In this document: positions 7,668-45,987 of the stretch, piece after piece
Layout of the letters: the number at the start of each line of letters is the position of its first letter
How positions within the stretch are numbered: position 1 is the stretch's first letter
Assembly (NCBI GenBank): GCA_021779375.1
Contig: JAJYAT010000005.1
Span: 1 to 64,000, forward strand
Origin: a bacterium
Lineage (GTDB): Bacteria; Patescibacteriota; Gracilibacteria; JAHISY01
Direction: 5' to 3'
Length of the DNA: 64,000 nucleotides
The notes under the pieces: model-generated
Database searches by the model: none
What the model was told of the DNA's origin: nothing
Seen by the model: the letters and a program-made list of their open reading frames with translations, nothing else
Position numbers and translations under genes: made by a program

Positions 7668-8090
7668 ATGGCTAAAGCAATCAAAGCGAAGATCAAACTG
7701 CAAATCCCTGCCGGTGCTGCGAATCCTGCGCCGCCAGTCGGCTCGGCACTCGGTCAGCACGGTGTCGCGATTCAGGATTTTTGTTCGCAATTCAATGCGC
7801 GCACGAAAGATCAGAAAGGCGATATTATCCCTGTAATTATCACCGTTTTCGACGATCGCAGTTTTACTTTCATCACGAAGACTCCCCCGACCGCGGAACT
7901 CATCAAGAAAGAACTCGGACTGAAAAAAGGCAGCGGCACGCCGAACAAAGACAAAGTCGGCGAAATCACCGATGCGCAGCTCGCGAAAATCGCTGCCATC
8001 AAGATGCCGGACATCAATGCCAATGACATCGAAGCCGCCAAGAAAATCATCGCTGGCACGGCGAAGTCGATGGGATTGAGGGTGAAATAA
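7668..8090 (+). CDS. rplK: Ribosomal protein L11
   Basis: 140 residues, full length. It forms the GTPase-associated centre of the large subunit with 23S rRNA. The N-terminal [20 protein letters not shown] and the [17 protein letters not shown] stretch are canonical, as are the linker [11 protein letters not shown] and the C-terminal RNA-binding [11 protein letters not shown]. In nearly all bacteria rplA follows directly, but here the next gene is a restriction enzyme, so the usual rplK-rplA-rplJ-rplL order is broken. Confidence 0.97.
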
Positions 8091-35446: not shown

Positions 35447-35481
35447 GGATCGGTAGCCCCGCTTAGCGGGACAGTCGGCTC
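35447..35481 (+). pseudogene. Partial copy of the tRNA-Lys 5' half
   Basis: GGATCGGTAGC (35447-35457) and CAGTCGGCTC (35472-35481) are identical to the tRNA-Lys gene 52 bp downstream. The D-arm between them is replaced by the hairpin CCCCGC-TTA-GCGGGA. The anticodon and 3' half are missing. Confidence 0.75.
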
Positions 35482-35498: not shown

Positions 35499-35574
35499 GG
35501 ATCGGTAGCTCAGCTGGTAGAGCAGTCGGCTCTTAACCGAAAGGTCCTGGGTTCAATCCCCAGCCGATCCACCA
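35499..35574 (+). tRNA. tRNA-Lys (anticodon CTT)
   Basis: Acceptor GGATCGG pairs with CCGATCC. D-arm GCTC/GAGC, anticodon loop CTCTTAA (anticodon CTT), T-arm CTGGG-TTCAATC-CCCAG, discriminator A and an encoded CCA. The top pair of the anticodon stem is a G-A mismatch. The last 23 bases are repeated exactly at 40714-40736, which marks the 3' end as an integration site. Confidence 0.95.
35552..35574 (+). repeat. Attachment-site-like repeat, left copy (tRNA-Lys 3' end)
   Basis: 23 bp from TTCAATCCCC to the encoded CCA, identical to 40714-40736. The flanking bases on both sides differ between the copies. Confidence 0.85.
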
Positions 35575-35597
35575 TTCTTCGCCCCGCCAAGCGGGAC

Positions 35598-35652
35598 TTC
35601 GAATGGCTTCGCCATTTTAGCCCTCCGCGTTTCGAATGGCTTCGCCATTTTA
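35598..35652 (+). repeat. Two direct copies of a 22-bp hairpin unit
   Basis: The unit begins TTCGAATGGC and ends CGCCATTTTA (35598-35619 and 35631-35652); each holds the stem AATGGC-TTC-GCCATT. A further hairpin, CCCCGC-CAA-GCGGG (35582-35595), lies directly after the tRNA. The rest of 35653-35921 has no gene, only AT-rich sequence and the repeat at 35798. Confidence 0.75.
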
Positions 35653-35797
35653 TCGATTGCCAACCTTCCACAAATCAAAAACACAAAAGCGAAGAAGGTT
35701 CTTTTGGTGATTGCGCTGGAGACGAGAAACCAGTCAGCACGAGCACCAATTAAAAAATAATTTGAATTTTGTTTTTTTATTTATTAGAAAGGGGCAT

Positions 35798-35826
35798 CCG
35801 CCTTCGCTAAAGCTACGACGGACAGG
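35798..35826 (+). repeat. CTTCGCTAAAGC-family repeat, copy left of the DpnII module
   Basis: CCTTCGCTAAAGCTACGACG with flanking CCG and GACAGG. The partner at 39775-39804 (CCTTCGCTAAAGCTGCGGCG, GGCAGG) lies on the other side of the three defence genes in the same orientation. The element can fold as CCGCC...GGCGG around CTTCGCTAAAG. Confidence 0.7.
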
Positions 35827-35883
35827 TAAGGTGTTTTCTTCCGCGGAGTTTACCCCCACCATATTGCAGGGCTACGAAAACGA

Positions 35884-35912
35884 TTTATTTATAATTTTTT
35901 AAAGGATATAAT
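35884..35912 (+). promoter_or_regulatory. Possible promoter of the DpnII-type module
   Basis: A consensus TATAAT at 35907-35912 with a weak TTTATT 17 bases upstream. Transcription would start near 35919, almost at the GTG at 35922, so the message could be leaderless. Confidence 0.4.
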
Positions 35913-35921
35913 CGAACTACT

Positions 35922-36740
35922 GTGCAAAAGCCATTTTACGAAAAACCGAGATTTAAACTATACCAAGCAGATTGTTTGGAGCTTTTAAATTCCCTGCCTG
36001 AAAGCTCGGTAGATATGATTTTTGCAGATCCTCCTTATTTTTTATCTAGCGGTAGTTTTACTTGTCAAAATGGCAAAATGGTAAGCGTAAAAAAGGGCGA
36101 CTGGGATTTAACCAATGGAACAAAAAAGAATTTTGAATTTCATAACGAATGGATAAAAGCATGCCGTCGAGTTTTGAAACCGAACGGAACAATTTGGATT
36201 AGTGGCACCTATCACTCAATTTATCAATGTGGTTTTGCCTTAGAAATAAACAAATATCATTTCCTAAATGATATTGCATGGTTTAAGCCTAACGCTTCGC
36301 CAAATTTGTCATGCCGATTTTTTACAGCCAGTCATGAAACTTTACTTTGGGCGAGAAAAGAGAAAAAAGGCAAACACACTTTCAATTATGATTTAATGAA
36401 AAATGGCGACTGGCCAGAGGATCAAATGAAAAAGCCAGGTTTGCAAATGAGGTCTGTTTGGTCAATTAACACGCCAAAACCGATTGAAAAGAAATTTGGC
36501 AAGCACCCAACACAGAAATCTTTTGATTTACTTAAAAGAATTGTTTTAGCAAGCACAAACAAGGGTGATGTGATTTTAGATCCTTTTACCGGAAGCTCAA
36601 CAACAGGACTTGCCGCCTATCTTTACGGAAGAAATTTCATTGGTATAGATACGGAAAAACAATATCTTGATTTATCTATCAAAAGATTTGAAGAACTGGA
36701 CAAGAATTTAAAAAATAAGCTTTCTAAAAAAATAATATGA
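35922..36740 (+). CDS. N6-adenine DNA methyltransferase, DpnA-like
   Basis: 272 residues from GTG 35922. Motif IV DPPYFLSSG (about 35-43) lies before the SAM-binding motif DPFTGSSTTGLAAYLYGRNF (about 221-240), the beta-class order. GDWD, NASPNLSCRFFTASHETLLWARK and GKHPTQK match the DpnA type, which methylates adenine in GATC, also on single-stranded DNA. The alpha-class DpnM that normally accompanies it is absent. Its stop overlaps the nuclease start as ATGA. Composition is very AT-rich, unlike the neighbouring core genes. Confidence 0.93.
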   Translation: MQKPFYEKPRFKLYQADCLELLNSLPESSVDMIFADPPYFLSSGSFTCQNGKMVSVKKGDWDLTNGTKKNFEFHNEWIKACRRVLKPNGTIWISGTYHSIYQCGFALEINKYHFLNDIAWFKPNASPNLSCRFFTASHETLLWARKEKKGKHTFNYDLMKNGDWPEDQMKKPGLQMRSVWSINTPKPIEKKFGKHPTQKSFDLLKRIVLASTNKGDVILDPFTGSSTTGLAAYLYGRNFIGIDTEKQYLDLSIKRFEELDKNLKNKLSKKII

Positions 36741-37654
36741 AAAATTTATCTTTTTATAACGATACTTTAAAGTGCAAATCCGATGATGAGGTTTTTGATT
36801 TTTTAATATCCAATTTAAAACCAAGCAATATGCTTTGGTCTTATTTTGTAAATTGGGAAAAGGTTTTACGCAATACAAAACAAATTGAATTGGCATTAAA
36901 CAACCTAAATTATCTTATTGGCAAAGATGATTTTGACAAAGAATTTAAGTTTTTACTCAAAGAAAATCCAAATTTGGCAAAAGTTATTCCCGCATTAGTT
37001 GTTAGAGACGGCTCAAACAAGAAGAATTTCAAAATTTTGGTAGATTACAAAAATAAAAAGTTGGTTTATGAAGATTATGATTTTACAAAGGAAAAATTAT
37101 CAGACGAAGATATTGAAAAATATCTAATTTTTGTAAAAGAAGCTGGTTTAAAAGATTTAATCATAAATAAAAAGATCAAAAATTTAGTTGATTACATGAT
37201 CGGAGTTGAGGCGGGGCTAGACAGTAACGGAAGAAAAAATCGCGGAGGTCATGCTATGGAAGATATTGTTGAAGCTTTTATCATTGATTTGTGTAATAAA
37301 AAGAAATTTAGATATTTGAAAGAAGCAAACGCAGAAAAAATTAAACGAGAATTTGACTATGATGTGCCAGTTGATAAATCTTCGAGAAGATATGATTTTG
37401 TTATAGACAACGGGAAAGAACTTTTTATTTTTGAAACAAATTTTTACGGCGGAGGTGGGTCAAAACTAAAATCAACCGCAGGCGAATATAGAAACTTGTT
37501 TGATGTTTTGGACGGAAAATATAAATTCATTTGGATCACCGACGGACTTGGCTGGAAAACAACCGGGAAACCACTCAGCGAAACATTTAATCACAACGAT
37601 TACCTTTTTAGCTTGGTAATGTTGGAAAAAGGAGTTTTAGAATTTTTAATATAA
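36737..37654 (+). CDS. DpnII-family restriction endonuclease
   Basis: 305 residues. The family signatures are GLDSNGRKNRGGHAMED (about 159-175), RRYDFVID with an acidic active-site residue, and FETNFYGGGGSKLKSTAGEY (about 231-250) holding the catalytic Glu. The end GLGWKTTGKPLSETFNHNDY is also characteristic. DpnII enzymes cut GATC when it is unmethylated, so the upstream methyltransferase is its protector. Coupled by an ATGA overlap. The N-terminal half is helical and less conserved. Specificity for GATC is inferred from the family. Confidence 0.9.
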   Translation: MKNLSFYNDTLKCKSDDEVFDFLISNLKPSNMLWSYFVNWEKVLRNTKQIELALNNLNYLIGKDDFDKEFKFLLKENPNLAKVIPALVVRDGSNKKNFKILVDYKNKKLVYEDYDFTKEKLSDEDIEKYLIFVKEAGLKDLIINKKIKNLVDYMIGVEAGLDSNGRKNRGGHAMEDIVEAFIIDLCNKKKFRYLKEANAEKIKREFDYDVPVDKSSRRYDFVIDNGKELFIFETNFYGGGGSKLKSTAGEYRNLFDVLDGKYKFIWITDGLGWKTTGKPLSETFNHNDYLFSLVMLEKGVLEFLI

Positions 37655-37660
37655 AATATT

Positions 37661-39751
37661 ATGGCAAATTTAAGACTTCAAAACATTTTAAAAAATAAAG
37701 TAGATACAATTTGCGGAGAGTGTAATTGTCAGCCCTCAATTGGCTTTATAAAATTAATGCTAAAAGAGGTTTTTGAATTAGATGAAAATGACATTGATGA
37801 GTCCATAACAGATGGATCTATGGATAAAGGTATTGATGCGATATTTGAACAGCAAAACGAAGACGGAGAAAATATTTTATATATAACTCAATCTAAATAT
37901 TTCCAAAATCCAGATAAATCACTTGATGAATCAGCTGTAAATAAAGCAATTTTAGCTGTTTCTAATTATATTTTAGGAGATTCACCTTCTGCAAACCTTA
38001 GTCCAAAGCTAAAGGATAAGACTGACCTATATAAAGAAAGACTGTCAAATGGAAAAATTGATTTAGTTTCTCTTGTATTTATAACAAATGGGCAAAGGGT
38101 TAATCCTAGTTTGATAAAAGAACTCGAGCAATTCAAGTCGCAACAAGGCGGGCAGATAAAATACGAAGTTTATACAGAGAGCGATCTGTCTTATGTTTTT
38201 TTGCCTACTTCTGCAACACCAGTAAAGCAAATAAATTTAAAAATCGTCAAAGATATAGGTGGCGGAGATAAAACTTTTATTGGTTTAACTGATTTGGGGT
38301 TCGTGCAAGGTAGAGTTGTAAAAATTGATGTTTGCGATTTAGCCGAGATTGTAAAGCAAAACCCAAATATCTTTAATTCAAATGTAAGAGCATACCAATC
38401 AATAAGAAACAAAGTTAATGAAGCTATTGCCTCCAGTTTGGGCAATGAAGAATCGGCAAAAATGTTTATCTACTTAAACAATGGAATTACTTTGTTATGC
38501 GACAATATTGAAATTAAACCAGGTAATGAAGTGGCTGTTATTGACAATCCTTCTATAATAAATGGCTGTCAAACAGCAAGTACAATACTGGAAATTTACA
38601 ATCAAGGAAAATTAAAATCAAATACAGCTTTTGTGTTAATGAGAATTATTAAGTCAAAAGACGAGGATATAAAAAGGCAAGTTATCATCTCAAGCAACAC
38701 TCAAACTGCTGTTAAAAATCGCGACTTAATAAGTGAAGAACAAATTCAAAAAGAACTTGAAAAACAATTTGAAATTCTAGGTTACTTTTATGAAAGAAAA
38801 AAGGGACTTCATCGCGGTAAACCAGAAGACAAAATAATTGACCTAGAAAAAGCTGCTCAATATTATCTTGCTCTTTATTTGCAAAAACCAGCTGAAGCAA
38901 AAAATAAAAAAAGTGAAATATACAAAAGCTATAAAGAGCAAATATTTGGCGATGATTTAACGGCAAAACAGCTCTTGGTTGGTTATATTTTATTTGACAA
39001 AATAAACGAAAAAATTAAAGAAATGAAAAAATCGGCAAATGAATCTAGAAAAAGCATACTTGGTAATAGTACTCTTCATTTGTTGCCATTATTTAGAGAA
39101 TGGGCAATTGAAGAATCTGGGAAATTTTTATCAGATTTAGAAGATAATTTATTAGAGTTAGAAAATATTTTTGATAATAAAATTGATTCCGTTATTTCTA
39201 AATTAGAAGATTCAATAAAGGGAATATCAAAAAAAGAGAAAGATGTGTTTAATCCCCAATATTTCTTTAAAAGTACCGATTCATTAGAAAAAATATTAAA
39301 CCTGCCAGAAAGAAAAAAGAAAGATATTTCAAAGCCGCTAGAACTAAATTTTGATAATTTTAAACGTCAAAAAGATTTAAGATATTACAAGCCAGATCAA
39401 TATTCATTAGACGGAATAAAATATTATGAAATAACGTATTGGAACGATTTATTTATAAAGCTAATGGAATTTTATGCAAAAACAGATCAAATAAAAGAAG
39501 GTAACATTGATTTCATAGAAAGTGGCACAAGAACTCTACTTCTAAATAACCCAGACGATTCAGAAAAAAAGCTAAGAAAGAAGATGAAAAATGATCTCTG
39601 GATATTAACCAATTTTAGCTCAAATTATTTATGTAGATTTTGTTTTGCTATCGCGAAAAAATTAAAAATGAACTTATTAATAAGATTAAGGCCAACTAGA
39701 TTCAGGAAACAAAACAAATATAAAAAATACAAAAAGAATAAGAAAAAATAA
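37661..39751 (+). CDS. AIPR-family abortive-infection protein
   Basis: 696 residues. The core is recognised by MDKGIDAIFEQQ near residue 50, ILYITQSKYF, then YLNNGITLLCDNIEI, and INGCQTASTILEIYNQGKL with SSNTQTAVKNRDLIS (residues about 265-365), all typical of AIPR (abortive phage resistance) proteins. The C-terminal 300 residues are helical and Lys-rich and form an extension I do not recognise, ending in a basic tail. It starts 6 bp after the nuclease gene, so the three genes are one operon. In related systems AIPR proteins back up restriction by stopping growth of infected cells; this is inference here. Confidence 0.88.
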   Translation: MANLRLQNILKNKVDTICGECNCQPSIGFIKLMLKEVFELDENDIDESITDGSMDKGIDAIFEQQNEDGENILYITQSKYFQNPDKSLDESAVNKAILAVSNYILGDSPSANLSPKLKDKTDLYKERLSNGKIDLVSLVFITNGQRVNPSLIKELEQFKSQQGGQIKYEVYTESDLSYVFLPTSATPVKQINLKIVKDIGGGDKTFIGLTDLGFVQGRVVKIDVCDLAEIVKQNPNIFNSNVRAYQSIRNKVNEAIASSLGNEESAKMFIYLNNGITLLCDNIEIKPGNEVAVIDNPSIINGCQTASTILEIYNQGKLKSNTAFVLMRIIKSKDEDIKRQVIISSNTQTAVKNRDLISEEQIQKELEKQFEILGYFYERKKGLHRGKPEDKIIDLEKAAQYYLALYLQKPAEAKNKKSEIYKSYKEQIFGDDLTAKQLLVGYILFDKINEKIKEMKKSANESRKSILGNSTLHLLPLFREWAIEESGKFLSDLEDNLLELENIFDNKIDSVISKLEDSIKGISKKEKDVFNPQYFFKSTDSLEKILNLPERKKKDISKPLELNFDNFKRQKDLRYYKPDQYSLDGIKYYEITYWNDLFIKLMEFYAKTDQIKEGNIDFIESGTRTLLLNNPDDSEKKLRKKMKNDLWILTNFSSNYLCRFCFAIAKKLKMNLLIRLRPTRFRKQNKYKKYKKNKKK

Positions 39752-39774
39752 GGAGTTTTGGGCTTCGGGCAATT

Positions 39775-39804
39775 CCCACCTTCGCTAAAGCTGCGGCGGG
39801 CAGG
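39775..39804 (+). repeat. CTTCGCTAAAGC-family repeat, copy right of the AIPR gene
   Basis: CCTTCGCTAAAGCTGCGGCG with flanking CCCA and GGCAGG, 23 bp after the AIPR stop. Partner of 35798-35826. The pair brackets exactly the three AT-rich defence genes and leaves out the SOUL gene. Confidence 0.7.
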
Positions 39805-39886
39805 CACCCCTTTAATTCCCCTCTTGCCCATCAATCAAAATGATTAAAACCAAAGCTCACAATTAAATCCTTTAACCCGTGCTCTC

Positions 39887-40588
39887 ATGCCAAAAAAAAT
39901 ATTATCTAATCATAAAAAAATGAATATGCTCTGGATCATTGCCATCATCGCGGCTGTTCTCTTCTCGGTCTGGGTCGCCTTCGGTTACTTCGGAAGCCGC
40001 GTGGAAACACTCTCTTACACCGTTTTGAGCAGCGACAAAGAATATGAAATCCGAGAGCTGCCGGAGCACATCATTGCCGAAACCACGGTCAGCGGTGATT
40101 TTGACGACGCCAGCGGTGAGGCCTTTAATATTCTGGCTGGATATATTTTCGGGAACAATAAGAAGAAACAATCCATAAGTATGACCAGTCCGGTGATCGA
40201 AAATGAATACGAAAAGATCGCCATGACCGCCCCCGTGATCGAAAGTGAGTCGGAGAAAATAGCCATGACCACCCCGGTTGTTGAACAAGATTCAGGGGCA
40301 AATCAAAAAGTTTTTTCCTTTGTCATGCCAGCTGAATATACATTGGAAAAACTACCCGAGCCATTGGATAAAAGAATCACCATAAAAAAAGTGGAAAGTA
40401 AAAAAATAGCGGTTTTCACTTTCAGCGGTTTTTATTCTGAAAAGAAAATTAATGAAAAAAAACAACTGCTCAAGCAATATCTGGATCGTGATGACCTGGA
40501 ATATTCCACCGTTTCCTGGGCTGGATACAACCCACCCTGGACACCGCCTTTTATGCGCCGACTGGAAGTCTGGGCGGAGCTAAAATAA
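39887..40588 (+). CDS. Membrane-anchored SOUL heme-binding protein
   Basis: 233 residues. An N-terminal span (MLWIIAIIAAVLFSVWVAFG) anchors the protein with the domain outside. The SOUL domain runs from about residue 45 (YTVLSSDKEYEIRELPEHII) to the end (GYNPPWTPPFMRRLEVWAEL). A stretch with three imperfect units, ISMTSPVIE, IAMTAPVIE and IAMTTPVVE (about residues 103-135), is an expansion of the usual single MTxPV motif. Binding of heme or another tetrapyrrole is expected. TTTAACCC lies 14 nt before the ATG. Base composition is closer to the host than to the restriction genes. Confidence 0.88.
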   Translation: MPKKILSNHKKMNMLWIIAIIAAVLFSVWVAFGYFGSRVETLSYTVLSSDKEYEIRELPEHIIAETTVSGDFDDASGEAFNILAGYIFGNNKKKQSISMTSPVIENEYEKIAMTAPVIESESEKIAMTTPVVEQDSGANQKVFSFVMPAEYTLEKLPEPLDKRITIKKVESKKIAVFTFSGFYSEKKINEKKQLLKQYLDRDDLEYSTVSWAGYNPPWTPPFMRRLEVWAELK

Positions 40589-40640
40589 TTTTCTCACTTT
40601 GATATCTCTGAATGAAGCCGGCTATCATTCAGAACTTATC

Positions 40641-40672
40641 AAGCCATTCTGGGCTCCCCCACATGGCTTTTT
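40641..40672 (+). terminator. Intrinsic terminator after the SOUL gene
   Basis: AAGCCAT (40641-40647), a 15-base loop, ATGGCTT, with a run of five T. A second strong inverted repeat, CTGAATGA/TCATTCAG, lies at 40608-40632 between the stop and this hairpin. Confidence 0.65.
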
Positions 40673-40713
40673 GGTCCGATTGATCGCAAAAACAGCGCAT
40701 ACGCTGAGCCAGC

Positions 40714-40736
40714 TTCAATCCCCAGCCGATCCACCA
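40714..40736 (+). repeat. Attachment-site-like repeat, right copy (tRNA-Lys 3' end)
   Basis: 23 bp identical to the end of the tRNA-Lys gene including CCA, with no other part of the tRNA. It ends the putative island. Confidence 0.85.
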
Positions 40737-40990: not shown

Positions 40991-41020
40991 AAATTTATTC
41001 GCTATTTCAATTTTTGGACC

Positions 41021-41082
41021 ATCGAACCCCTGACCCTCCCGATATCACATCGGGATGCTCTAGCCAACTGAGCTACAGCCCC
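41021..41082 (-). pseudogene. Truncated tRNA-Ala-like remnant
   Basis: The first 27 bases (GGGGCTGTAGCTCAG..., ending GAGCA) equal tRNA-Ala, but the anticodon arm is TCCCGATGTGATATCGGGA, two bases longer, with no proper loop. The sequence stops in the T-loop (GGGGTTCGA) without the 3' acceptor strand. It cannot form a tRNA. Confidence 0.75.
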
Positions 41083-41247
41083 ATTTAGTTTTTAGTTTGT
41101 AGTCAATAGTTTGTAGAGCTACTGCCAACTACAATCTACCAACTACCTACTTTAAAAGAGCCGGGGAATTTTACCCGAAAACTTTTAGCTTTGCTAAAAT
41201 CGCTTCACCAAATTTTCAATATCAAATTCAGAAATTTTAAATTGTTT

Positions 41248-41335
41248 GCCGGGGTGGTGAAATGGTAGACACGGGAGACTTAAAATCTCTTGGGGATCAA
41301 ACCTCGTGCGGGTTCAAGTCCCGCCCCCGGCACCA
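41248..41335 (+). tRNA. tRNA-Leu (anticodon TAA)
   Basis: Acceptor GCCGGGG pairs with CCCCGGC. The anticodon stem GGAGA/TCTCT holds loop CTTAAAA (TAA). A long variable arm (TGGGGATCAAACCTCGTG region) marks a class II tRNA. The T-loop is TTCAAGT and CCA is encoded at 41333-41335. Confidence 0.95.
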
Positions 41336-41488
41336 AAATTAAAATAAATTATTTTTGTCCGCCGCGAAGTTCCGGGGATTTTGGCTTGGGGTGAACGCGA
41401 AATCGCAAAGGAACAAAACCAAAAAAAGCACGAGTGTGACGGCGCGCGCCGCGATGGAATTTTGTTTTTCGCAAAACTCGCAGCTAGC

Positions 41489-41541
41489 TTCAAGTCCCCT
41501 GCCTACCGGCAGGCAGGCGCCCCCGGCACCAAAATTAAAAT
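41489..41541 (+). repeat. tRNA-Leu 3'-end copy split by a palindrome
   Basis: 41489-41498 (TTCAAGTCCC) and 41519-41541 (from GCCCCCGGCACC on) repeat 41313-41345, the 3' end of tRNA-Leu plus its flank. Exactly 20 bases, CTGCCTACCGGCAGGCAGGC (41499-41518), are inserted between them. That insert is the CCTGCC palindrome also seen at 1070. The region 41346-41837 holds no other convincing gene; a CTCGAC/GTCGAG hairpin lies near 41766-41783. Confidence 0.85.
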
Positions 41542-44694: not shown

Positions 44695-45987
44695 TCACGA
44701 ACTCATTTTCGCGTGACGTGATTTTTTGCGACGCACGAGCAGGACAATCACAGTGACGAGCAAAATCGCAATCACGACTCCCCCGCCGATCAGTCCGAGC
44801 AAAATGAAATCGATTGCGCTTGAGGAAAATTGGACTTCCGCTGTGAGCGGCGTATTGGCAAAGCCGAAATTCGCAGCCAGCTTCGCGGTGTAGTCACCGC
44901 GCGGCACAGTTTTTTCTAACCACGGAATCGTAATCACCGCAGTCGAACCCGGCGCGACGTATTCGACATTGTCCGGAATCTGCGGCGAAGCGACCAACTC
45001 ATCGTAGGCATTGCGGATCTCAATCACGCCTTTTGGTCGTTCGAAAACATTGCCGGAATTGGTCAGCGTGAGGGAAAAGTCAGTCGATTTTTCGAGCTGA
45101 TTGATGACGAAAGAATCAACTGCTAAACCTTCTTTGATCTCGACTTCGGTCGTCTGGGTGATCGTCGGCTGGTCGGCGTAATCCAGCGTGAGCTTCGCGG
45201 TAAATTTACCGGGGCGCAGATTGTGGTTCCATTCGCCCGTGAAAATGCGTTCGTTACCGGGCAAAACATTACCACCACCAAGATTGAGTGGAACTTCATC
45301 TAAGATAACAGTCGCGCCTGAGTCTCTATCGACATAACTCGCAACTCCTGTAAGTACCTTGCCAGCAGCATCGGTGAGCGAAACTGAAGCGCGCGGTTTT
45401 TCGTGGACATTGCCGGCGTTTTGGAAATCGCAGCCAAAAACTAAACCTTTGTCGCTCAGAATTTTGTCGTTTTTGAATGTGAAGCTCGTGACTGTACCTG
45501 CGTGAATTTCCTCACCGCTGACTTTGATCAAGATGAGACTCCGCACAGCTGTTTGGATTTTGATGCCAGTCGCGTTTTCGTCGGCGACCGTCGTGTACAA
45601 AAGCGAAGCGTAGCGACCGCCCGGCTCAGCACCATCTGGCACTGTGACTGTGAAATTCACAATCTTTTCCGAGCGCGGCGCCAGCGTGATGACATTCTTG
45701 TCAAAAGCAATCCAGCTGGAGATATTGCGCGGATCATCCGCTGCGAGATCCTCGACTATCGGATAACCATCTTCGTCATTCTTGGTGTAGACCGTCAGCT
45801 CGGGTTTGACCGTAATCGGGATAGATTCAGGATTGATGACGCGAATCGTCGCCGTCACAGCCGCGCCGGGATCAATGTCGAGCTCAGTGCGCACCGGCTT
45901 CACACCAACCGCGAAAACTGTCGAGACAGTCAATACACAAGCGGCGAAGCTTGAAAGTGTGAGCGAGAAAGTTTTTGTGAGAGACAT
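44695..45987 (-). CDS. Membrane-anchored beta-sandwich protein, DUF916/WxL-interacting-like
   Basis: 430 residues. A signal peptide (MSLTKTFSLTLSSFAACVLT, ending VFA) is followed by a first Ig-like domain (PVRTELDIDPGAAVTATIRV, FTVTVPDGAEPGGRYASLLY) and two more beta domains (VSLTDAAGKVL, then FSLTLTNSGNVFERPKGVIE). Near the C-terminus is one membrane span (LLGLIGGGVVIAILLVTVIV) and a basic tail RRKKSRH. This order, with an extracellular Ig-like front and a C-terminal anchor, resembles DUF916-type proteins that hold WxL-domain partners at Gram-positive cell surfaces. The family link is tentative. Third gene of the surface operon, 49 bp after the preceding one. Confidence 0.7.
   Translation of the reverse strand: MSLTKTFSLTLSSFAACVLTVSTVFAVGVKPVRTELDIDPGAAVTATIRVINPESIPITVKPELTVYTKNDEDGYPIVEDLAADDPRNISSWIAFDKNVITLAPRSEKIVNFTVTVPDGAEPGGRYASLLYTTVADENATGIKIQTAVRSLILIKVSGEEIHAGTVTSFTFKNDKILSDKGLVFGCDFQNAGNVHEKPRASVSLTDAAGKVLTGVASYVDRDSGATVILDEVPLNLGGGNVLPGNERIFTGEWNHNLRPGKFTAKLTLDYADQPTITQTTEVEIKEGLAVDSFVINQLEKSTDFSLTLTNSGNVFERPKGVIEIRNAYDELVASPQIPDNVEYVAPGSTAVITIPWLEKTVPRGDYTAKLAANFGFANTPLTAEVQFSSSAIDFILLGLIGGGVVIAILLVTVIVLLVRRKKSRHAKMSS

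Follow-up and report, generated by a model that had tools for sequence, protein, structure and literature searches.

Does an exact repeat of a tRNA 3' end, with defense genes between its two copies, record the site-specific integration of a mobile element? This question is raised by the first 64 kb of contig 5 (JAJYAT010000005.1, positions 1 to 64,000; this whole stretch is hereafter called the window) of a Gracilibacteria genome (GCA_021779375.1; 1.07 Mb in 14 contigs, 98.3% complete), in which the last 23 nucleotides (nt) of an intact tRNA-Lys(CTT) gene recur downstream of four protein-coding genes. The initial annotation, made from the sequence alone, read this arrangement as the footprint of integration at the tRNA gene. 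The AT-rich, very likely foreign block of genes beside the tRNA that it described has stood up to analysis, but the repeat is not supported as the scar of site-specific integration: copies of the same type follow other tRNA genes without any island, and for this reason the repeat is poor evidence for tRNA-targeted integration. With some reservation, we think it probable that the repeat is instead the end of a short unit behind tRNA-Lys, with acquired genes inside it that would have entered without an integrase. The terms "unit" for such elements and "tail" for the tRNA-like end were coined in this analysis.

The tRNA-Lys repeat and the genes between its copies

The features of the interval are as follows, in window coordinates.

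35499-35574, plus strand: intact tRNA-Lys(CTT) gene (ARAGORN)
35670-35725, plus strand: tentatively, what is left of the 5' portion of a Lys unit, with hairpin AACCTTC..GAAGGTT, T-run, and TTGGTGATTG
35798-35826, plus strand: 29-bp direct repeat flanking the AT-rich module, left copy
35922-36740, plus strand: N6/N4 DNA methyltransferase, PF01555 (Pfam; GC 0.349)
36737-37654, plus strand: DpnII-family restriction endonuclease, PF04556 (Pfam; GC 0.300)
37661-39751, plus strand: AIPR/AbiU-like protein, PF10592 (Pfam, PADLOC AbiU; GC 0.291)
39776-39804, plus strand: right-hand copy of the 29-bp direct repeat (identity with the left-hand copy, 86%)
39887-40588, plus strand: SOUL heme-binding protein, PF04832 (Pfam; GC 0.436)
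40706-40713, plus strand: octamer GAGCCAGC directly before the tRNA-Lys copy; the same octamer precedes the copies of tRNA-Ala(CGC) in this genome and of tRNA-Leu(GAG) in a relative (G004)
40714-40736, plus strand: exact copy of tRNA-Lys nt 54-76, from T-loop to CCA, interpreted here as the 3' terminus of a tail unit
From 40737: right flank after the copy, AGATAGTTG..., then tRNA-Cys

The final 23 nt of tRNA-Lys (nt 54-76) are found exactly at 35552-35574 and 40714-40736, placing a direct repeat of the tRNA 3' end at both borders of the gene interval. No match was obtained in 100 shuffles, and across all 14 contigs the 23-mer occurs only at these two sites when up to three mismatches are allowed; the genome-wide search and the shuffles thus bear out the exact recurrence that had been reported. 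This is the sole tRNA-Lys(CTT) among 33 distinct tRNAs from 30 tRNA loci of the genome, in which 46 tRNAs score above the cut-off.

Pfam and GC content also agree with the earlier description of a methyltransferase, a DpnII nuclease, an AIPR protein, and a SOUL protein between the repeats, the first three AT-rich; GC of the whole window is 0.477, versus 0.349, 0.300, and 0.291 for these three genes and 0.436 for the SOUL gene. Protein-family knowledge indicates that the methylase and DpnII most likely form a restriction-modification (R-M) pair, with AIPR as a predicted abortive-infection-type partner. The endonuclease gene adjoins the methylase gene as in DpnII-like type II R-M, and PF04556 beside PF01555 and PF10592 recalls DpnII-type R-M with an AIPR/AbiU-like partner, although the present cluster holds a single methylase gene. 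The 29-bp pair around the AT-rich module has only these two copies in the window, with up to three mismatches allowed. Separately, the 3' flank of the AIPR gene (39737-39824) has a matching counterpart behind an AT-rich Mrr-type restriction gene on contig 4 of the same genome (L120, ~7710-7768; G000:C4:49709-49767), where the palindromic repeat is missing. A left flank common to the AIPR module and the Mrr-type gene was considered and found unconvincing, the right flank alone matching.

The distribution of these genes is patchy. Matches to DpnII were found in 17 of 353 genomes of the class, our own genome counted, and in none of four genomes of the same genus and one of the same family (two of these five being incomplete, at 71% and 85%); SOUL was matched in 9 of 60 genomes, again with our own included, and in none of the five family relatives searched. 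The nearest copy of DpnII, 81-86% identical, lies in a genome of a different family (G338), whose methylase is 78% identical. In that genome the methylase-DpnII pair stands behind a tRNA-Ala(GGC), and the genes on either side are, as we take it from their translations, tufA and nusA. The G338 pair differs from its relative in the window in its partners, a DUF5655 protein and an AAA/AbiEii-like ATPase in place of any AIPR match, and within the 19.9-kb locus no exact stretch of at least 12 bp of the tRNA-Ala recurs. The composition of this locus therefore indicates that the pair moves, swaps partners, and can adjoin a tRNA without a tRNA repeat. We also observed that the G338 DpnII gene (L081 8996-9894, G338:C44) is broken into two overlapping frames, the methylase frame being open. 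Viral contigs searched with DpnII and AIPR yielded no relatives, and every match to DpnII in plasmids (18 records) and to AIPR in phages (21 records) was below 60% identity. Taken together, composition and patchy distribution make it very likely that the methyltransferase-DpnII-AIPR block is foreign.

The further suggestion that such islands are unusual in Patescibacteria (the candidate phyla radiation) did not hold. Genomic islands of Patescibacteria that carry R-M genes on horizontally acquired regions have already been published (PMC12455944, as far as the part of that paper available to us goes), and islands as such are therefore not unusual there; those islands share with ours the placement of R-M genes on acquired DNA but, in the same part of the source, hold a type I system and no tRNA-tail repeat.

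Tail units behind tRNA genes

In the Gracilibacteria family of this genome, tRNA genes are often followed by units of ~140 nt, the last part of which repeats the 3' end of the host tRNA. Our first comparison for 3'-end copies within the genome covered 34 tRNAs and 212,313 bases in overlapping loci. Behind tRNA-Ala(CGC), an exact copy of nt 54-76 lies 145 bp from the gene with GAGCCAGC in front of it, and the interval between gene and copy is touched only by mechanically called open reading frames (ORFs) of at most 90 aa. The Lys copy shares both its start (nt 54) and its preceding octamer with this tRNA-Ala(CGC) unit. Like units were found behind Val, Leu, and Ser tRNAs in relatives. The initial annotation had named, as an outcome that would speak against integration, that the 23-bp copy might be one of many scattered tRNA fragments; this is largely, if not fully, what was found, as copies with a like start and octamer occur elsewhere.

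When the octamer junction was sought in the 353 class genomes, 31 gave matches, and further tRNA tail copies were present only in the genome's own family; the remaining matches outside the family, read by eye from the letters, were ordinary T-stems or chance. One junction match (G004:C31) was dropped as a unit, the locus having no tRNA. A model of the unit, R1, was then built from five aligned copies downstream of tRNAs for Val, Leu (two), Ser, and Ala and run against 20 genomes, with at most 150 candidates scored per genome. At E <= 0.001, G005 had 22 matches and G003 had 3; G000 (our own genome), G001, G002, and G004 had a single match each. A second model, R2, from 21 sequences, had matches at the same cut-off in all six family genomes and in none of 347 others, with 9 candidates scored per genome. 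The unit loci are L160, L161, and L193-L205 (G005), L158, L207, and L210 (G003), L159 (G004), and, in our own genome, L121 and positions 41369-41531 of the window.

The 28 aligned R1 matches and the tRNA-Leu unit of the window make up a set of 29 units. A same-strand tRNA lies at most 150 bp upstream in 23 of the 29, at 27-44 bp in 20 of those 23, and for 20 of these 23 units the adjacent tRNA is the best fit to the tail among all tRNAs of those loci. Seven of the 29 tails are exact over 23 nt; others have a T-loop one base shorter or are interrupted by a palindrome. The octamer is less constant: 23 of 28 units have GCYA[ACG], 10 follow the strict consensus RAGCYARC, and 2 have exactly GAGCCAGC. 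The gene for tRNA-Val(GAC) differs in its acceptor strand between G003 and G005, and each tail matches the tRNA of its own genome; the tail is therefore kept in step with its tRNA. Units of the same family were also seen in two other settings, both in G005. One stands 33 bp behind the tmRNA gene (gene, L213 2240-2666; unit, L213 2045-2207, minus strand, G005:C12), and its tail agrees with the final 23 nt of the tmRNA over their first 11 nt, after which a palindrome interrupts it; the other is a run of three tandem units with an Ile-like tail (L212 2728-3210, minus strand, G005:C6) in a 10-kb stretch without an ARAGORN tRNA.

In the copies read, a hairpin with a T-run precedes the start of the unit, whose 5' strand is able to pair with the tail. 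In the modeled structure, 81.2% of cells in the 28 sequences are paired, versus 40.7-51.6% when the partner is slid, and two-sided changes affect 82 cells versus at most 29 when slid. By element, pairing reaches 73-83% in the end helices, 99% in the inner hairpin, and 70.5% in the tail hairpin. RNAalifold, run on the plain five-sequence alignment, found two-sided changes in 17 of 38 pairs. Whether the 5' strand pairs better with its own tail than with a foreign one gave a permutation p of 0.02 (24 of 28 units, with four rows from L209, L200:758, and L204 left out), which lends weak support. From this modeling, the units are likely to be RNA-structured. Only tRNAs reached the Rfam gathering score at five unit loci; two weaker Rfam matches overlapping unit starts (sX4 and permuted tmRNA) fell below it and were set aside. 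In a partial literature search (PMC13059738 included) no tRNA-tail unit family was met in Patescibacteria, which is no proof of absence.

Tail copies may be more widespread than this family. Outside it, 6 of 43 distinct tRNAs (90 loci) have a copy of their own 3' end of at least 15 nt within 1.5 kb downstream, and of the five cases inspected, G006 Met, G006 Ala, G010 Asn, and G166 Trp look like units whose body is of another kind; the Cys case is less clear. If so, the family-only result of R2 would concern this unit body alone. In these loci (L029 and L041 of G006, L031 of G010, and L135 of G166) the 3'-end copies stand 76-169 bp behind the tRNA; those of G006 are preceded by a stretch antisense to the T-arm, and another kind of tail unit may exist.

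Some tRNA genes of the family also have small GIY-YIG ORFs beside them. PF01541 has 38 matches in the six family genomes, 6 of them UvrC-sized, and 27 of the 32 small matches were checked; 15 have a tRNA no more than 300 bp away, in every case on the same strand. These 15 and one further ORF at 405 bp were inspected for tRNA copies, and in 8 of the 9 cases with the ORF upstream of the tRNA, the initial 12-26 nt of the tRNA are repeated exactly just before the ORF. Small tRNA-adjacent GIY-YIG loci with partial tRNA copies are L230, L225, L241, L231, L236, L232, L238, L228, and L222. The tRNA-Met gene of G004 has behind it, in this order, a first copy of its end, a GIY-YIG ORF, a second copy, and a unit whose tail is the third; no other counterpart was found to the placement of genes between tRNA-Lys and its end copy. 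There is no GIY-YIG match in the window, the Lys interval included (other homing families were not searched), and the one match on contig 5 (C5:83929-84156) belongs to a 714-aa, UvrC-sized frame.

The nearest published likeness that we met for GIY-YIG ORFs with tRNA copies is that of the fungal mitochondrial mORFs, in which, in the part of the source available, an endonuclease ORF is accompanied by a duplicated 3' end of a gene (PMC3630166). The SPAM9 element, likewise from a partial view of its source, is an endonuclease ORF beside a target gene of which part is duplicated (PMC8208691). The GIY-YIG ORFs of this family resemble both in being flanked by copies, here of tRNAs; unlike mORFs and SPAM9, which as far as these excerpts show concern protein genes and exons in mitochondria, they are found with bacterial tRNA genes, gene-free units, and pairing ends, and the Lys interval itself is without a GIY-YIG gene.

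Origin of the tRNA-Lys arrangement

In the reading that we favor, tRNA-Lys would have carried a tail unit within a repeat-rich, rearranged tRNA cluster, and horizontally acquired genes would have come between the tRNA and the end of the unit, destroying its middle. The AT-rich module and the SOUL gene would probably have entered separately, in at least two events, because their compositions differ. Entry would have been by ordinary recombination or end-joining at local repeats, such as the 29-bp pair, and not by an integrase. We infer both that the Lys copy was once part of a full unit and that the steps took place in this order. A candidate for the 5' part of the lost unit lies at 35670-35725, where TTGGTGATTG is partly complementary to the tRNA-Lys 3' end; the predicted duplex has -20.3 kcal/mol (z -2.0), a value equaled by 3.2% of shuffles.

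Several observations weigh against this reading. A distance of 5.1 kb separates the Lys copy from its tRNA, where ~0.2 kb would be usual, and this is well beyond the 150 bp within which 23 of the 29 units have a tRNA upstream. At Lys, R2 gives no match to the unit body at E <= 10, and R1 matches the terminal hairpin only (8.2 bits). The possible remnant on the left scores low (8.4 bits, E 0.022 in 346 bases), and the right side does not pair better than shuffled sequences do (16.8%). No Lys unit was seen in relatives, the tRNA-Lys genes of G003 and G005 (4 kb compared) and of G001 (1.6 kb) having no exact copy of at least 12 nt, and the octamer that links Lys to the family meets the strict consensus in only 10 of 28 units and is identical in 2. 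An integrase acting in the T-loop would also leave an exact 23-bp end at nt 54. As for the unit family itself, R1 has weak matches in 10 of 14 other-family genomes (best E 0.086), and the R2 search scored only 9 candidates per genome behind filters stricter than those for R1; the 28-sequence alignment was fitted to the structure and hence leans towards pairing, and the RNAalifold covariation term for the five sequences is unfavorable (+1.92).

Genomic islands and integrative elements that target tRNA genes and are bounded by T-loop-to-CCA direct repeats are well known, and this locus resembles them in that genes of foreign composition separate an intact tRNA from an exact 23-bp repeat of its 3' end. 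An element that entered the T-loop of tRNA-Lys through a trans-acting or since-lost recombinase, with the intact tRNA as attL and the 23 bp as attR, would account for a T-loop-to-CCA repeat with two genome copies only, for the foreign AT-rich genes between them, and for DpnII and SOUL having no match in near relatives. Unlike such islands, no integrase is recognized in the interval: as the initial annotation had claimed, none of the four genes is a recombinase by Pfam (smaller interval ORFs were not scanned). A search of the rest of the genome for a tyrosine recombinase, as it had proposed, gave as sole PF00589 match a 311-aa Xer-type protein on another contig, and no tyrosine integrase beyond it was found; serine recombinases and transposases were not searched, and a serine-recombinase route may apply. 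Relatives were also compared for an empty site, another of the proposed checks. The tRNA-Lys(CTT) of G003 and of G005 has no copy within 4 kb, and that of G001 none in the 1.6 kb compared, but gene order downstream differs in all three, so that no clean junction of the tRNA with the right flank could be drawn in any of the three usable relatives; the small protein encoded next to the locus, scanned against the genome contigs, occurs at only three loci, those of G001, G003, and G005. Island-free copies of the same type behind other tRNAs, the related G338 cassette behind a tRNA-Ala without a tRNA repeat, and the GC difference between the SOUL gene and the AT-rich module, which speaks against a single unit, further argue against integration, and we consider it unlikely.

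The altered gene order, unlike that of G001, G003, and G005, and the further tRNA fragments in the window would also be expected if the copy were a by-product of rearrangement in the tRNA cluster, through partial duplication or translocation of tRNA-Lys, unrelated to units or integration; the break at nt 54 and the octamer, however, are features of the unit family that chance breakage would not be expected to produce, and this origin is quite improbable. The island might instead be a cargo-bearing member of the family, the units themselves being mobile and carrying genes between the tRNA and its copied end. The Lys copy with its family junction and genes inside, the GIY-YIG ORF between tRNA-Met end copies in G004, the 15 of 27 small GIY-YIG matches that lie near a tRNA on its strand, and the tandem units in the tRNA-free 10-kb stretch of G005 would suit this idea. 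Against it, a single further case of cargo was seen, neither a recombinase nor a GIY-YIG gene was recognized in the Lys interval, and the defense genes carry flanking repeats of their own; we regard it as very unlikely, the least probable of the origins weighed. A broader proposal, in which ~140-nt, probably RNA-structured units behind tRNA and tmRNA genes form a new element class, with tails kept in step with the host tRNA, spread aided by GIY-YIG endonucleases (the ORFs between partial tRNA copies), and the island as a cargo-bearing member, is likewise doubtful.

We find the unit family of greater interest than the island itself. A repeat of a tRNA 3' end is a standard flag for islands, and the many island-free repeats in this lineage could mislead repeat-based calling. 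The family also raises the question of why a short repeat keeps its end identical to its tRNA, and whether GIY-YIG nucleases drive this. Acquisition as proposed for the Lys interval may be one way in which reduced Patescibacteria genomes gather defense genes near tRNAs.

Gene order and tRNA fragments around the cluster

In G001, G003, and G005 the cluster runs small gene, Ala, (Cys), Leu, Lys, and in G003 and G005 a homologue of the window protein encoded at 44695-45987 lies beyond it. In our own genome the order is small gene, Lys, the four genes, Cys, Ala, Leu, two more genes, and then protein 44695-45987. Further tRNA-related features of the window are as follows.

35447-35481, plus strand: tRNA-Lys 5' fragment, GGATCGGTAGC followed by hairpin CCCGCTTAGCGGGA in place of the D-arm and CAGTCGGCTC, 17 bp upstream of the intact gene (repeat family D17)
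41014-41082, minus strand: tRNA-Ala(TGC) fragment lying 5' of the intact gene, its anticodon arm replaced by hairpin TCCCGATGTGATATCGGGA
41248-41335, plus strand: tRNA-Leu(TAA) (ARAGORN)
41369-41531, plus strand: tRNA-Leu tail unit (R2 match 41369-41508, 47.3 bits, E 7e-9)

A 28-nt exact repeat at 41056-41083 contains the first 27 nt of tRNA-Ala, and the 3'-end copy of tRNA-Leu (41489-41531) is interrupted by a 20-bp palindrome. These other fragments of the window, that is, the Ala 28-nt repeat, the Lys 5' fragment, and the Leu tail copy, are all without an island. Fragments of tRNAs with an arm replaced by a palindrome were also observed at L115 and L123 (Ala-GGC), L125 (Phe), and L093 (Asn).

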